NCBI GenBank assembly: GCA_018266795.1
Contig: JAFDZV010000032.1
Location: 1 to 54,396, forward strand
Length of the DNA stretch: 54,396 nucleotides
Source of the DNA: Bacteroidota bacterium
Lineage (GTDB): Bacteria > Bacteroidota > Ignavibacteria > OLB7
Direction of reading: 5' to 3'
In this document: one piece after another, positions 47,590 through 53,372 of the stretch
How positions within the stretch are numbered: the first letter of the stretch is position 1
How the letters are laid out: each line of letters opens with the position of its first letter
The notes under the pieces: generated by a model
What the model was told of the DNA's origin: nothing
Seen by the model: the letters and a program-made list of their open reading frames with translations, nothing else
Databases searched by the model: none
Made by a program: the position numbers and the translations under genes

Positions 47590-48789
47590 ATGGCGCGCAA
47601 GCGAAAGGATGATATCATAGAATCCGTTGAGGATCTTGGGGAGTTGGAAAGCAAGTATCGTGGGAAGCCGGAGGAGGCTCGTGTCAAGGTGCTGCGTCTG
47701 CTGAAGGACGATCCCGATCTCGGTATCGACGAGGCTGCGGTGATAATCGGCTATTCCAAGCAGGCGGTCAAGCGGTGGCTGAAGGTGTATCGCGACGAGG
47801 GGCTTGCGCAGTTACTCACCGGAGGTGGGCGGCGACGTGTTCCCAGCCAGGATCTCCAACTGGGGCTGCTCCAGCAGAAACTTGCAGCGGGAGATTTTCA
47901 GGAGATCGGTGATGTGATGCACTGGATCTCTCAGCGCATCGTGCCTGCCGGTCAGATTCGTCACGACCGCTCCGACGGCTCACAGCAGGCGCACGGCTCC
48001 TCCACGAACGGCCATGGTGCCGTCATGCAGGCGGGAAGCATTGTGCCGGACAATGTCCTTCGTATCCTCTCCTCGCTGGTCGGTGTTTCCGATGTGCAAT
48101 CATGGACGTCCTCCTTCAGGGAAGCATTGCGCATACTGCTTGGCGATGTTGACCTGGTGAGCATCGGGATCAATGTGGAGTGCGATCTGCAGAACCCTTC
48201 GGCTTACAGGCCGAACATGGCGCTCTCGCAAAGCATAGTGTCCGGGACCGAGGCAATCGATTCGCTCCATCATTTGAACCGGGCCGATGAGAATCGCGAT
48301 GAGGAACATATCAAGCGATTCCTCGATAACCTCAGGCGAAGAAAGTTCAAGTTCGCCCAGTACCACCCACCGGTAAGCTTCGTGTATCACTACGGCGACA
48401 ACGCCTATCTCGGCGGGATCGTCCTGTGGCGTGAGCGATCGTGGCCGCCGGTGTCGTCGCGGACTATTGCCACCATGGAGAGTCTGCGCAGCTTCATTGT
48501 ATTCCTCCTTTCGGACTTCGTTGCGCGGCACCAACTGGCGCGGCCGATGGGCCACTCCTTCGCCGAGACTGTGGACGAGATCGCGATGACCGCTGGTCTC
48601 ACGCTACAGGAACGCCGGATCCTGATGCTCCAGTTGTTGGGGATGGGATACGAGGAGATCGCCGACAATCTGAACATATCCCTCAACACCGTTCGCACAC
48701 ACGTCCGGTCGATATACGAAAAGACAGGCGCACGGGGCCAGACCGACCTGGTGGCCAAGTACTTTACGCTGAAGATTGAGTCCACATAA
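47590..48789 (+). CDS. Dual helix-turn-helix regulator (transposase-type HTH plus LuxR-type HTH), copy 1
   Basis: A 399-residue putative transcription factor. Residues about 36-76 (IDEAAVIIGYSKQAVKRWLK, then VYRDEGLAQLL) are an IS630-like homeodomain HTH. The middle (about 140-320) is an unrecognised alpha/beta domain with YHPPVSFVYHYGDNAYLGG and LWRERSWPPVSSRT motifs, perhaps GAF-like. Residues about 337-395 are a LuxR/GerE HTH (LTLQERRILMLQLLGMGYEE, then NISLNTVRTHVRSIYEKTGA). It has no receiver domain. It is a paralogue of the gene at 50.8 kb, sharing the LESKYRGKPE start, the middle motifs and the LuxR domain. The secreted Cys-rich gene lies 210 bases downstream. Confidence 0.88.
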   Translation: MARKRKDDIIESVEDLGELESKYRGKPEEARVKVLRLLKDDPDLGIDEAAVIIGYSKQAVKRWLKVYRDEGLAQLLTGGGRRRVPSQDLQLGLLQQKLAAGDFQEIGDVMHWISQRIVPAGQIRHDRSDGSQQAHGSSTNGHGAVMQAGSIVPDNVLRILSSLVGVSDVQSWTSSFREALRILLGDVDLVSIGINVECDLQNPSAYRPNMALSQSIVSGTEAIDSLHHLNRADENRDEEHIKRFLDNLRRRKFKFAQYHPPVSFVYHYGDNAYLGGIVLWRERSWPPVSSRTIATMESLRSFIVFLLSDFVARHQLARPMGHSFAETVDEIAMTAGLTLQERRILMLQLLGMGYEEIADNLNISLNTVRTHVRSIYEKTGARGQTDLVAKYFTLKIEST

Positions 48790-48814
48790 GTCTATTGACA
48801 TTAGTCTCGTAGCG

Positions 48815-48869
48815 GTGAAAATCACATTCGCATGCGAGTGATTTTGATATCAGTATAGGGCGATCTTTG
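48815..48869 (+). promoter_or_regulatory. Operator-like GTGA/TCAC array and promoter of secreted gene 1
   Basis: GTGAAAATCAC, then a TCAC-N12-GTGA box reading TCACATTCGCATGCGAGTGA, then TTTTG and GATCTTTG as a weak -33/-7 pair. A closely similar box with the same downstream bases lies before secreted gene 2. Binding by the adjacent regulator is an inference. Confidence 0.55.
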
Positions 48870-48953
48870 CACCGGTGCTAGTGCCCACGCGTACCGGATT
48901 CTCTCAACCACACCACCTACCACCGTCCGGGCGCTTCCAGGCACGAGAACCGA

Positions 48954-48975
48954 CTCTCTCTCTCTATCTCTCTCC
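48954..48975 (+). repeat. CT-dinucleotide run
   Basis: CTCTCTCTCTCT-AT-CTCTCTCC, 24 bases upstream of secreted gene 1, within the leader. Could vary in length by slippage. Confidence 0.7.
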
Positions 48976-48998
48976 ACTCGCATCAACAGGGGTACGCT

Positions 48999-49553
48999 AT
49001 GAAAAGAGCCATTATGGCCCTTGCATTACTGCTCGTGCTCTCCGTCAGATGCTGGTCGCAGACATCTTATTGCGTTGATCAGAACGCCACACCGATCGAC
49101 TCGATTTCGGTGGATGTCGCTCTTGGTTCGGGTTCCCAGATCATCAGTGAGATATGGGTAACGCGTTCCGCCGGCGGCCAGATCCAGTACGTTGTCAATC
49201 CTCAATTGATCTACTTCACAGGAGATGGATCGAAAGTGGATGCGATGTCGACGACACAGATCTTTGACTTGGTAGCACAGGCAGCTGTTTCCGAGGGAAT
49301 TTCCCTTGGATACACATCCTGTCCGGGGTCCTGCACGTCGCCCGCAACGGCGGTCGTCCGGATTCCGGCATGTGTGCTGCGAACCGGTACCGGAACACTC
49401 ACGCACTTTACGGTGTGCAGTGGAAGCGGTTGCTGTGTTCGCGTCTATAACGTTTGTTGTCCAAATGGAGCTGGGGCGCCAAGCGTCACACTCGCGAGTT
49501 CAAGCAGTCCGGGGTGCTCACCAAGTTCCGGCTGCGAATCCACCTGCCCATGA
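48999..49553 (+). CDS. Secreted 12-cysteine protein, copy 1
   Basis: A 184-residue protein I do not recognise. A Sec signal peptide (MKRAIMALALLLVLSVRCWSQ) is followed by a beta-rich region (IISEIWVTRSAGGQIQYVV, LIYFTGDGSKVDAMSTTQIFD). The C-terminal third is cysteine-rich: CPGSC, PACVLR, CSGSGCCVRVYNVCCPNG, PGC, and the end GCESTCP. The cysteine spacing, RxYxVCCP core and STCP ending are shared with the protein at 52.8 kb. It carries no T9SS domain or lipobox. Disulfides suggest periplasmic or extracellular location. Expressed from its own promoter region after regulator copy 1. Confidence 0.85.
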   Translation: MKRAIMALALLLVLSVRCWSQTSYCVDQNATPIDSISVDVALGSGSQIISEIWVTRSAGGQIQYVVNPQLIYFTGDGSKVDAMSTTQIFDLVAQAAVSEGISLGYTSCPGSCTSPATAVVRIPACVLRTGTGTLTHFTVCSGSGCCVRVYNVCCPNGAGAPSVTLASSSSPGCSPSSGCESTCP

Positions 49554-49614
49554 TGTGCGCACACGCCACATCGTACACCATGGCGAATGATAGGTGGCTC
49601 GTTTTTCACTCCGA

Positions 49615-49631
49615 CGCCGCTTGATGCGGCG
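49615..49631. terminator. Small hairpin between secreted gene 1 and the T9SS protein
   Basis: CGCCGC-ttgat-GCGGCG, 60 bases after the stop. No T-tract. Confidence 0.4.
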
Positions 49632-49669
49632 GATCAAACGCGATCATTCGTCCAACAGAGAGGTTATGT

Positions 49670-50164
49670 ATGCATAGAATCCTTACAACGATATGCTTCG
49701 CCGCCATCGTGGCGATTGCAGTGCCAGTCGCGCTCCGTGCCCAGACCGGAAAGCAGAAGGTGATGATTGTGGCATGGGAGCAGAAGGGATACCTCGTAAC
49801 TGAAAACGGAGGTGGAAGCTGGAGGCTGGTTGCGGCCAGCGAAGTCGGAAGCCTTCCCGAGAATATCCAGGCCCTGTTGAAGACCAGCAGGAGCAATGAA
49901 GTCGCGAATCAAACGGCTGTGGTTCCGAATCCCTCCGCCGGACAGGTCTCCTTCCGGTACAATGTCTCGTCGCCCGGTGATGTGGCAATCACCATCTACG
50001 ATGGGCACGGAGCCGAAGTCGTGCGTACCATAGCTGCCGCCGCAGCGGCCGGCTATCATTCATACAGTGTCGATCTCTCGAGCCTCCCAAGTGGTGCATA
50101 CTACTATCGCATTGCCAACGGTGAGGGTCCCGTAGGCAATGGGACGGTAATCATCACCCGCTAA
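49670..50164 (+). CDS. Small protein with type IX secretion sorting domain
   Basis: A 164-residue exported protein. The signal peptide MHRILTTICFAAIVAIAVPVALRAQ is followed by about 55 residues with a short beta segment (VMIVAWEQKGYLVTENGGGS). From about residue 85 the rest is a complete type A T9SS C-terminal domain: VVPNPSAGQVSFRYNV, DVAITIYDGHGAEVVRTI, GYHSYSVDLSSLPSGAYYYRI and the closing GTVIITR. It should cross the outer membrane through the type IX machinery (not encoded here). Almost no cargo remains between the signal and sorting domains, so the processed protein would be tiny. It sits between the two regulator-secreted protein modules. Confidence 0.88.
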   Translation: MHRILTTICFAAIVAIAVPVALRAQTGKQKVMIVAWEQKGYLVTENGGGSWRLVAASEVGSLPENIQALLKTSRSNEVANQTAVVPNPSAGQVSFRYNVSSPGDVAITIYDGHGAEVVRTIAAAAAAGYHSYSVDLSSLPSGAYYYRIANGEGPVGNGTVIITR

Positions 50165-50171
50165 CAGGGAT

Positions 50172-50245
50172 GGACGGTGATACCCAGCAGTAGCCACCCG
50201 GTTTGTTGAGCCGCAGTGAGATGAACCGTGTGGGTATCACCGTCC
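50172..50245 (+). repeat. Long-armed inverted repeat containing GTGATAC/GTATCAC
   Basis: GGACGGTGATACCCA and its exact complement (15 bp) enclose a 44-base loop with its own CCGGTT/AACCG pairing. It starts seven bases after the T9SS protein stop. It could be a transcription terminator, or an operator, because GTATCAC also occurs in the array before secreted gene 2. Confidence 0.65.
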
Positions 50246-50300
50246 TGGCTCAGCCGCAAAAGAGATCGCAGCGTCGAGAAGGGAAGTCCTGCTCGTATTC

Positions 50301-50334
50301 GCGAATCCCGACCGAATCTTCGGCCGGGATTCGC
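50301..50334. terminator. Hairpin in the leader of the second regulator
   Basis: GCGAATCCC and GGGATTCGC (9 bp) with further partial pairing (GACCGA/TCGGCC) inside. The bases from 50165 to 50810 otherwise hold no gene, only this hairpin, the 15-bp inverted repeat and the regulator promoter block. Confidence 0.5.
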
Positions 50335-50633
50335 TGCGTTATGAGCCTCGTGTTCGCTCGTACGAGCTCCGCAGCGCATCAGGCCCGATGGTTGCGGGGT
50401 ATCAGCGCTGCGGAATGTGGGCACCGTGGAAGGGGAGCGGCCGGGCACACCGTGTATACCAAACCATACCGATGTAGCATCAGCTCGGAGATCCGGTGGT
50501 TGCGGATTGAGACCGTATACTGCCGGCATGGAAGCGGGATCGGTGCGGCGCTGTCGGGGAAGTTCCCGGGGTGCGGGTGCAGGATGCCAAAAGGTTGACG
50601 GCAGTATTGCGTCGGAACGCATGAATCGTTGGG

Positions 50634-50649
50634 GGAGATTCGTATCTTG
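50634..50649 (+). promoter_or_regulatory. Promoter-like block of the second dual-HTH regulator
   Basis: GGAGATTCGTATCTTG, matching GGAGATTCTATACCTTTG before the first regulator. The -7 box (TATCTTG) is weaker than in copy 1. Confidence 0.45.
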
Positions 50650-50810
50650 TGCTCGCTTTCCCCGCTCTATCGCCAGGGCATTCCCGAAATCGGCGACGCA
50701 TTCGGGCTGTACTGCGGCAGCATGAGGCGTGCGCCATCATATCGATGCCCGGCATCAACGGTCCGCTTTGTCGTTGACCCTCGATGGAGCAGCAACAAGG
50801 AGTTCGAAAT

Positions 50811-52106
50811 ATGCCACGCAGGCGGGATGCAGTAATCACCGAGAGTTCCGAAAAGCTTCAACGTCTGGAATCCGAATATCGCGGCAAGCCTGAAGGGCAG
50901 CGTCTTGCAACCTTGCGTTTGCTCCGGGAACGCCCGGATCGTCCAATCGAGGAGATCGCCACCATGGTTGGCTTCTCAACGGCCACGGTAAAGCGCTGGT
51001 TGCGAGCGTATCGCGAAGGGGGGCTGGCGGCCGTGCTGGATCGTCGGGCCGGCGGCAAGGATACGCAGCGGTTCGATGCCGGATTGAGCACGCTGAAGCA
51101 GAAACTTCTCAATGGCGATCTTTCCAATCTCGAGGAGGCATACGCCTGGATTGCAGATTACCGCCGTTCGCCTGGAACCCGCAAGATCGCGCAGCAGGCG
51201 ATTCACCGCGGGCGTCCCTCCGGGCCGGCCGCGCCGAAATCGCCCGGGCCGGAGCCCGAAGGGGCTGCCGATGCCGAGACAATGCGCCAGCTCCTTGTGG
51301 ACCGCCTGATGGCGGCCGTGGTAAAGGATTCCGAGCGCGTTGATAGTGGTGCGTTCGTTGACTGGCTGCGGAGTATTCATAGTGCCATTGCCGGCGTGTT
51401 CGATGATGTGGATTGGGTCCACTTCATCCCCAACATCAATGTCAACCTGTGGGACCCCTCCGATTATCGGCCCACAATGGCGATCGCTACTGCGTATGGT
51501 GGAGACTCCGAGCCGCTCATGGCTCCGATGTCGAGAGATGAGTGGAACAACGACGCGTTTCACATCCAGCGCATGCTGGAACAACTGGCCGATCAGCGGT
51601 TCGAAGCGGAGCGGTACCACCCCCCCAAGGCATTCGTGTATTACTATTGCGGTACGGCATACCTTGGGACGCTGCTGCTGTGGCGCGAACTCGGCAAGCC
51701 CACCATATCGCGACAGACGCTGGAGATCCTGGACAGTCTTGCACCAACCTTCAAATTTGTCCTGATAGATCTCGTGGCGCGACATATGGCCGTCTGGCCC
51801 CACATGCACACGCCAACCGAGACGGCCAGCCACCTGGCCAGAAGTTTGCAGCTTACACCGCAGGAGACGCGCATCCTGGTTCTGCAATACGTGGGGCGTA
51901 GTTACGAGCAGATCGCCGAGATTCTGAACATTTCGCTGAACACGGTTCGTACCCATGTGAAATCGATCTATGCGAAGTCCGGCACGCACGGGCATTCGGA
52001 TTTCACGGCGCGATACCTGACTCCGCATGCGGGGATGGAGGTCGACAATGGCAGTACGCATGTCCAGGGCCGGGTACGCCGTGAGGCTCCGAAGACCCAG
52101 GAGTAG
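50811..52106 (+). CDS. Dual helix-turn-helix regulator (transposase-type HTH plus LuxR-type HTH), copy 2
   Basis: A 431-residue paralogue of the 47.6-kb regulator. N-terminal HTH IEEIATMVGFSTATVKRWLR and AYREGGLAAVL; a linker with a Pro-rich patch (GRPSGPAAPKSPGPEPEGA); a middle domain with YHPPKAFVYYYCGTAYLGT, LLWRELGKPTISRQT and DLVARHMAVWPHM; LuxR HTH LTPQETRILVLQYVGRSYEQ and NISLNTVRTHVKSIYAKSG. A 40-residue tail is absent from copy 1. ATG at MPRRRD has an AAGGAG ribosome-binding site. The paired secreted gene lies about 690 bases downstream. Confidence 0.88.
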   Translation: MPRRRDAVITESSEKLQRLESEYRGKPEGQRLATLRLLRERPDRPIEEIATMVGFSTATVKRWLRAYREGGLAAVLDRRAGGKDTQRFDAGLSTLKQKLLNGDLSNLEEAYAWIADYRRSPGTRKIAQQAIHRGRPSGPAAPKSPGPEPEGAADAETMRQLLVDRLMAAVVKDSERVDSGAFVDWLRSIHSAIAGVFDDVDWVHFIPNINVNLWDPSDYRPTMAIATAYGGDSEPLMAPMSRDEWNNDAFHIQRMLEQLADQRFEAERYHPPKAFVYYYCGTAYLGTLLLWRELGKPTISRQTLEILDSLAPTFKFVLIDLVARHMAVWPHMHTPTETASHLARSLQLTPQETRILVLQYVGRSYEQIAEILNISLNTVRTHVKSIYAKSGTHGHSDFTARYLTPHAGMEVDNGSTHVQGRVRREAPKTQE

Positions 52107-52793
52107 CTCTGCTGGAGGGCTTCCGGCCAACGGGACGCGTCTCCCGGAACGTTGGAACCAGGATGGACGTTGGTTGGTTTCCCGCACGAGCACCCATGGG
52201 TTGCGGCCCGTCCGGCTGTGCGGGGCACCGTTTGCGCATGCTGCACGTCGATATGCACATGCAGGATGCGGTCCGCGGCGTGAGCGTCTGCCGACCGTTG
52301 GATGGAGAGAGGCCGTACTTCCCGGCGCACCACATGCCCTGGGTACGGATACACCGCCTCGTGCGGACAAGCAATTGCAACACCACCGCAGCCACAGCTG
52401 TTCACCGACCGGTTAACGATCCGGTTACACCGTTTTTAGTGTCAGTGATTCGTATCACGAAGGCGAATATCACCCTAAGATGTGAGTGACTTCGGCATCG
52501 CGACGAGGCCATATTTGTACTGAACACAGGAGATGCATGAGAGAATGCCGGGCCGTCTCCGTACGCATGTTTCCGGATGTCCGATGAGAGGGGCATCAGT
52601 GGGAATGTGCCGGCGGGGTATCCTACCGGGATAAGCGGGTCCGGGAATGCGAGTTCGAATGCACATGATCAGTTGCTCTGTATGGCGGGCGTCGGCGGTA
52701 GAGCCTGTGGGGATGCAGGTGTCTTACTTTCCATGATTTGACATGGGGTCGGAACCACGCGGCTCCGATCCGCAACCTGAGGGAGGTGTCCAT
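52107..52793. other. Leader region of secreted gene 2
   Basis: No protein-coding gene is supported. It contains the operator-like array, a possible 16-codon frame at 52536 (MRECRAVSVRMFPDVR) and a hairpin (TCGGA-acc...ggc-TCCGA, about 52748-52771) just before the ribosome-binding site. Confidence 0.5.
52445..52517 (+). promoter_or_regulatory. Operator-like GTGA/TCAC array and promoter of secreted gene 2
   Basis: GTGATTCGTATCAC, then TCACCCTAAGATGTGAGTGA (14 of 20 bases identical to the box before secreted gene 1), then, aligned without gaps, a -7-like CATATTTG where copy 1 has GATCTTTG. The array lies 277 bases upstream of the start codon. Confidence 0.55.
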
Positions 52794-53372
52794 ATGAGCA
52801 GTAACAAACTGAGGGGAAGCGTTCTATGCGTCCTCTTGCTATCGGCAGCAATGCTGACACGTGCAAACGCGCAGAACAATCCGTGTATTGATCCCGGATC
52901 GCAGATAATCGGCCAGTTCAAAGGAGAAGCACAGCTTTCCGCAAGCGGAAAGTCGACGACAACGACCTGGGATGTGATAATAACACGCACGGTTAACGGA
53001 AACATCGCACTGTCGGTCGACAGCAGGTCGATTCGATTTAGTGGAGATGATGAGGGCATTGACAATACAAGCACGCTCGCGCTGTTCGATCTGATCGACA
53101 TGGTCTCGATTTCACAGGCGATAAATCGGGAATTTGTACCGTGTCCGGTTCCATGCGACCAGCCCCTGTTGGTGACCATAGCATCGCAGGCCTGCGTTCA
53201 GAGAGCTGGAATCGGCATATCTACCAGTTTCATGTCGACATGCGGCGATGCGTGCTGTACGCGAACGTACTCTGTCTGCTGTCCATCAGGTACGGCGTCA
53301 CCGACGTTGACACTCATACGTGTCGATAATCCGGGTTGTGCGGCCGGTTCATGCCAGTCAACCTGTCCGTAG
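52794..53372 (+). CDS. Secreted 12-cysteine protein, copy 2
   Basis: A 192-residue paralogue of the 49.0-kb protein. A signal peptide (LRGSVLCVLLLSAAMLTRANAQ) precedes a beta-rich stretch (WDVIITRTVNGNIALSVDSR, FSGDDEGIDNTSTLALFDLID) and the cysteine-rich C terminus: CPVPC, QACVQR, CGDACCTRTYSVCCPSGT, NPGC and GSCQSTCP. Start at MSSNKLRG is backed by a GAGGGAGG ribosome-binding site; an in-frame ATG 51 bases upstream lacks one. Function unknown. A perfect GC hairpin about 125 bases downstream may end the transcript. Confidence 0.85.
   Translation: MSSNKLRGSVLCVLLLSAAMLTRANAQNNPCIDPGSQIIGQFKGEAQLSASGKSTTTTWDVIITRTVNGNIALSVDSRSIRFSGDDEGIDNTSTLALFDLIDMVSISQAINREFVPCPVPCDQPLLVTIASQACVQRAGIGISTSFMSTCGDACCTRTYSVCCPSGTASPTLTLIRVDNPGCAAGSCQSTCP

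Follow-up and report, generated by a model that had tools for sequence, protein, structure and literature searches.

A LuxR-type regulator, a conserved operator and an exported protein form a probable switch module, present twice in a Bacteroidota contig (OLB7)

Overview

The window analysed here (the whole 54,396-nt stretch of contig JAFDZV010000032.1, Ignavibacteria, OLB7) carries two copies of a module in which a LuxR-type regulator gene is followed by the gene of a Sec-exported protein. We propose, with a probability of about 0.8, that each copy acts as a switch on transcription of the exported-protein gene it carries, operated by a LuxR-type activator. In the proposed mechanism, i) the GAF-like sensor of the activator would enter its active state, ii) a dimer would bind a palindromic operator near position -42.5 through its LuxR helix-turn-helix (HTH), iii) the bound regulator would draw sigma-A RNA polymerase to a promoter whose -7 box is of the Bacteroidetes type, and iv) the adjacent gene would be transcribed, giving an exported protein, in most cases stabilised by disulfides, together in some modules with a small partner secreted by the type IX system. 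As regulator, operator, promoter and target can all be read from sequence alone, these predictions are precise to the base pair.

The two copies in the window

All five genes of the locus lie on the forward strand. Copy 1 consists of reg1 (47590–48789, 399 aa), with an IS630-type HTH, a GAF-like sensor and a LuxR/GerE HTH, and cys1 (48999–49553, 184 aa), which has 12 cysteines beyond its signal peptide; these are followed by a third gene (49670–50164). Copy 2 consists of the paralogues reg2 (50811–52106; the ORF opens at 50784, the probable start being 50811) and cys2 (52794–53372, 192 aa; probable start, with GGAGG just 5'). Sequence comparison gave 39% identity between reg1 and reg2 over their whole length and 33% between cys1 and cys2 over 180 residues (E = 4e-32). 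Both exported proteins have Sec-type signal peptides, ending SQ/AQ, followed by 12 cysteines and a terminal STCP (ESTCP in cys1, QSTCP in cys2). The original prediction, made from the sequence of this DNA, of two paralogous regulators each followed by a paralogous Sec-exported 12-cysteine protein ending in STCP is thus borne out, with all four genes present.

The same prediction held that the intergenic DNA was duplicated as well, which we did not find. The gap between regulator and secreted gene is 209 nt in copy 1 against 690 nt in copy 2, and the only part common to both is a stretch of some 55 bp that holds the operator and promoter. As conservation between the copies is limited to this element, a block duplication of the entire unit was ruled out. 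Nor is the module simply a pair of genes: regulator and partner do adjoin, but a third gene follows copy 1 and recurs elsewhere, homologues lying 3' of the secreted gene in five other modules (six modules in total). Its product has a signal peptide, one Asp-box-like motif (of the type S-x-D-x-G-x-T-W, recognised by eye) and a type IX secretion sorting tail (Por_Secre_tail, E = 7e-9; TIGR04183, E = 9.5e-9). This cargo tail also occurs on several proteins of the sister regulon described below; the 12-Cys protein lacks it.

Distribution and conserved adjacency

Altogether, four genomes of one family contain 21 regulators, and 15 partner genes whose upstream sequence is known, counting as single genes the regulator halves apparently split across contigs C30/C15 (genome G000) and C80/C81 (G003). 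The window's own genome (G000; 5.97 Mb, 71 contigs) has ten regulators, detected with a profile of the regulator middle domain, and six secreted-family genes, detected by profile search, each immediately 3' of a regulator. In the congener G001 there are seven regulators and five partners; G004 has three of each and G003 one of each. A further secreted gene in G003 (contig C54), with a third gene following, has its upstream side cut by the contig end.

A regulator lies directly upstream of every partner gene with known upstream context (15/15), an adjacency far beyond chance, and 15 of the 21 regulators adjoin a secreted-family gene, six being without such a partner. The original prediction would have failed had the regulators occurred mostly without a neighbouring gene of this kind, or had the partners belonged to a known family found in a different context; the regulators are mostly partnered, and no family match was obtained. 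Downstream of one partnerless regulator (L063:3521-4309, reverse strand) come an operator-like site, CTACTACAAAGGTTGTATTG, and a gene from a different family whose product resembles a lipoprotein.

Neither profile matched G002, a genome of the same family, or the other sampled genomes of the phylum (395 genomes in all, own and G002 included) at E = 0.001. A scan of genome contigs with one genome per species (84,980 species), which may omit the window's own genome, returned only five loci, in Chlorobiota bacterium RYN_334 and MAG-306. The module therefore looks like a lineage-specific expansion at the family level. An origin from phages or plasmids was rejected, the secreted protein being unmatched in phage and plasmid records and the regulator in viral contigs.

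Domains and fold of the regulators

An HTH_23/IS630-type N-terminus and a GerE/LuxR C-terminus are present in both reg1 and reg2, as first described. In reg1 (Pfam: HTH_23, E = 2e-12; GerE, E = 1e-10), the GAF-like sensor occupies residues ~150–315 and the LuxR/GerE HTH residues 337–388; PF00196 (GerE) scores of 41.4 and 41.9 bits, against a cut-off of 23.5, identify the latter as an HTH of the LuxR type. The long regulators match the N-terminus of IS630 transposases (NF033545, E = 6e-9 and 3e-12). This match is limited to the DNA-binding part and is far under the family cut-off, and no transposase catalytic domain was found in the regulators. The dual-HTH layout, once considered unusual, is not a constant feature, as the N-terminal HTH is present in about half of the regulators and the remainder begin at the middle domain. 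The architecture is thus an optional IS630-type HTH, a GAF-like sensor and a LuxR HTH. Two variations on it were seen. A regulator at the start of contig C15 of G000 (L057:54-1028) has by eye an extra C-terminal Xre-like HTH, a possible further DNA-binding element, and a free-standing protein similar to the IS630-type HTH at the N-terminus of the long regulators is encoded downstream of a secreted gene (L059:3745-4185, reverse strand).

The middle domain, earlier regarded as unknown, was assigned by structure. Each of 20 middle domains was scanned against Pfam-A at E = 0.1 with no match, neither to GAF nor to Autoind_bind (PF03472). An AlphaFold model of the middle domain with the LuxR helix had middling confidence (pLDDT 75, pTM 0.60; pLDDT < 50 in region 59–86). 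VIA aligned the middle domain with many GAF domains (Z 9–10.6 over about 140–150 residues), and the top Foldseek matches of the regulator model were the quorum receptors QscR, RhlR and SdiA (E = 6e-6 to 2e-4), with low TM-scores (0.25–0.40) and with the LuxR helix contributing to the match. On this model the middle domain is predicted to have a GAF-like sensor fold, as in many LuxR-type receptors, so that, joined to the LuxR helix, the regulator may resemble the LuxR receptors of quorum sensing.

The likeness to quorum-sensing LuxR receptors and solos (QscR, SdiA, RhlR, LasR, TraR) covers the LuxR HTH and may extend to the sensor fold (Foldseek E = 6e-6 to 9e-4), and a palindromic operator near -42.5, here predicted, is common to both. 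In contrast to these receptors, the module regulators lack a PF03472 match and often carry an additional IS630-type HTH in front; their fixed neighbour encodes a protein for export, and the modules showed no gene for a signal synthase. A search for LuxI-type synthases (PF00765) gave no match in the four genomes, and none in control genomes either. GAF-domain regulators, such as CodY and GAF-containing activators, have a similar sensor fold (VIA Z as above; CodY, Foldseek E = 9e-4), whereas here there is no GAF match at the sequence level and the domain is joined to a LuxR HTH and, in some regulators, also to an HTH of transposase type. With IS630 family transposases the long regulators share the N-terminal DNA-binding HTH. 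The LuxR HTH, the GAF fold, the IS630 HTH and the type IX tail are all known kinds of parts. Our literature search, incomplete in coverage, gave nothing on their combination, on its coupling to a new secreted family or on the operator network.

Operator and promoter between regulator and partner

An unsupervised (Gibbs) motif search of the 15 regulator-to-partner gaps returned an 18-mer with 16.3 bits, against 11.2–11.6 bits in six shuffled sets, and every gap was found to hold a putative operator at a fixed spacing from a -7 box. The motifs ACTACACAAAAGTGTAGT, GTACACAAACATGTAC, TACACGATAGTGGTATAG and CTCAAAAGTGTACTTG each occur in two modules, and the window-type operator, whose register was set by hand, in three (twice in the window and once in G001). 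The palindrome is clear in ACTACACAAAAGTGTAGT, GTACACAAACATGTAC and window copy 1 and weaker in the others.

The putative operator of copy 1 (48818–48845) is an interrupted palindrome, AAAATCAC-N12-GTGATTTT, followed by the -7 box GATCTTTG (48862–48869; consensus TAnnTTTG), which places the predicted transcription start at about 48874. That of copy 2 (52468–52493; YAC-N6-ATGTGAGTGACTT) is of the same variant, and its -7 box CATATTTG (52510–52517) lies at the same 16-nt spacing, with transcription predicted to begin at about 52522. In Bacteroidetes, sigma-A promoters carry TAnnTTTG as their -7 box, spanning -12 to -5 (PMC9723704), and lux boxes are located at -42.5 (PMC4471428). By these position rules (PMC9723704, PMC4471428) the copy 1 palindrome is lux-box-like, with its centre at a predicted -42.5. 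A TAnnTTTG-like box follows the operator by 20–21 nt in all 12 modules that are not window-type and by 16 nt in the three that are (3/3); in the 12 modules its mean score at the best offset was 4.0, the best of 2000 shuffles reaching 2.9. Judged from these spacings, operator centres fall near -42.5 to -44.5.

These positions also bear on whether the regulator activates or represses. As a repressor it would occupy a palindrome overlapping the -33 region and block polymerase until released by a ligand; the operator does adjoin the -33 region, and some LuxR-family proteins are repressors (PMC4471428). We consider repression unlikely, because a centre near -42.5, with the -7 box spacing kept within 1–2 nt in the 15 modules and at most regulon sites, is the geometry of an activator, and several of the promoters have no obvious -33 TTG.

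In close paralogues the operator is 89–100% identical, whereas identity drops to 14–40%, near background, in its flanks (40 nt on the upstream and 50 nt on the downstream side); only the G003/G004 pair departs from this, with 50% over an upstream flank of just 16 nt. This comparison makes it very improbable that adjacency and shared operators merely record a recent duplication of DNA blocks with no functional coupling. Paralogous modules do share ancestry, and close pairs partly carry the correlation described below; most paralogues, however, are just 30–45% identical and their intergenic flanks cannot be aligned, and the operator, with its -7 box spacing, has been selectively retained instead of decaying equally with the flanks.

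Activation through the LuxR helix, the reading we prefer, is consistent with two further comparisons. First, regulators without the N-terminal HTH still have the operator where they are partnered, so the LuxR helix is likely to be its reader. Second, distances between operators correlated with those between LuxR helices (Mantel r = 0.65, p = 5e-5), and did so even after controlling for the middle domain (r = 0.51, p = 2.5e-4). The correlation weakened with one member per close pair (r = 0.46, p = 0.009), with eight modules (r = 0.37, p = 0.14) and with a register-free measure in ten modules (r = 0.31, p = 0.06), so that co-inheritance may explain part of it. This co-variation is support and not proof, and is not robust once close pairs are dropped. 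No match to a module's own operator was seen upstream of the regulator genes.

The exported protein family

Among the 15 aligned family members, 11 have 10–16 cysteines and four only 2–3 in the aligned protein. Twelve cysteines are therefore ruled out as the mark of the family, and the trait "disulfide-rich", by which the partner had been defined, does not hold for 4/15. The broader proposal, that a sensor/regulator controls a secreted product, is supported both by the 15/15 adjacency and by the presence in every module of an operator at activator spacing. Cysteines are lost in pairs, as expected of disulfides: 112 and 153 (cys1 precursor numbering) are both gone in L069, only 108 and 154 of the core set are kept in L068, and 25 and 145 have an identical pattern of presence across the family. 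This pattern suggests the disulfides 25–145, 108–154 and 112–153.

No match to the secreted proteins was found in Pfam or NCBIfam, or among PDB sequences at E = 10, and membership of a known toxin or adhesin family was rejected on these grounds; Pfam matches of single members (E = 0.03–0.09) were at chance level. Mature cys1 was modelled with high confidence (pLDDT 91.9, pTM 0.88) as strands and one long helix. Foldseek searches of the model against PDB and BFVD gave nothing at E = 0.001, and the best VIA match, to a proline racemase-like structure (Z 4.6), was too weak to use. The predicted fold may thus be new, though a match could have been missed. Structure prediction, proposed from the outset as a check on both domains, led to a GAF-like match for the middle domain and, for the secreted protein, to a high-confidence model without a confident structural match; the secreted proteins make up a new family. 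Most probably the exported protein resides outside the cell or on its surface, with a presumed role in matrix, adhesion or recognition.

Alternatively, the exported protein could be a signal that feeds back on its cognate GAF-LuxR regulator, a form of peptide or protein quorum sensing with many private channels. Strict pairing of regulator and partner, several diverged paralogous pairs per genome with different operators, and the quorum-receptor-like architecture of the regulator would all suit such a role. We nevertheless find it quite unlikely: the sensor is cytoplasmic, the partner, at about 165 residues, is a folded and disulfide-rich protein in which neither a pro-peptide nor a processing site is obvious, and no importer gene was seen in the modules. 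Moreover, operator and secreted-protein distances are not correlated (Mantel 0.02), although those of middle domain and secreted protein are (r = 0.38, p = 0.004).

Two distant Cys-rich relatives of the secreted family were also noted (L190:2354-2941 and L188:3591-4313; profile E about 5e-4, small set). Neither has a module regulator within the fetched stretch, and the former adjoins an Asp-box protein with a type IX tail.

Operator specificity and the sister regulon

Operators differ between module types, so that the many paralogues could be under separate control; the tandem pair in the window has a single variant in common, and cross-talk, with each regulator acting on both genes, is possible. 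Genome-wide occurrence was assessed by pattern searches, on which all the following counts rest. Exact matches to the window-type pattern were confined to positions 48823 and 52471 in the own genome, before the two secreted genes, and to a single site in G001, before the gene of the related module. A wide regulon for the three window-type operators was rejected, as the number of matches at 2 mismatches did not exceed two to three times that of the control. The operator of G003 and G004 is found a single time in each of these genomes. The CAAAAGTG class pattern has exact matches at module sites only; allowing one mismatch adds a second copy before the third gene on contig C15 of G000, another, on contig C11 of G001, that has no surviving gene, and four further sites. 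An intact operator and -7 box (TACACAAATGTGTAGTTG-N20-TAGCTTTG) with no obvious ORF is found at L069:3144 (reverse strand), and in a related module the same element precedes the third gene (L057:1998); the L069 element could be a ghost promoter or mark a small RNA.

One operator, GTACACAAASATGTAC, here called the sister operator, is widespread. At up to 3 mismatches it has 35 matches in G000, about 28 of them of the true type by eye, and 21 in G001, against 2–5 for the reversed control in these two genomes. In G003 and G004 there are just 2–3 matches (control 1), and no regulator of the GTACACAAASATGTAC type was found there by middle-domain search. The operator GTACACAAASATGTACT occurs at about 45 sites in G000 and G001 (e.g. 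L123-L172, L063:1801), mostly upstream of signal-peptide genes. A signal-peptide-like ORF (at least 100 aa, within 600 nt, its start classified by a home-made rule) follows 34 of the 45 sister sites in these genomes, compared with 4/45 in the reverse direction and 11% for randomly chosen positions; a few of the 34, for example in L144 and L160, seem to be chance ORFs. The -7 box is again at a single offset. Among the targets are an eleven-member family of large proteins (repeat proteins, of which several end in type IX tails) and, from a different family, six small proteins rich in cysteine.

These data may extend to a broader picture, which we offer as possible but rather doubtful: a lineage-specific set of largely orthogonal regulator–operator–exported-protein channels for cell-cell recognition or communication, each with its own signal, received through the GAF-like sensor, and its own disulfide-locked extracellular protein lacking a confident fold match in the PDB, one channel having expanded to regulate exported and type IX secreted proteins globally. 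The literature that we found does not describe how uncultured Chlorobiota-like bacteria regulate their surface proteins and those secreted by the type IX system. With about ten paralogous regulators in a single genome and several operator classes, the family offers a natural series for studying how regulator–operator specificity diverges after duplication, and the sister operator, with some 28 sites mostly before genes of exported proteins, is a case of how one regulator may acquire a regulon. At two loci (L127 and L136), GTACAC sites precede ORFs that by eye resemble sigma factors (172 and 198 aa) and not exported proteins, suggesting a regulatory cascade.
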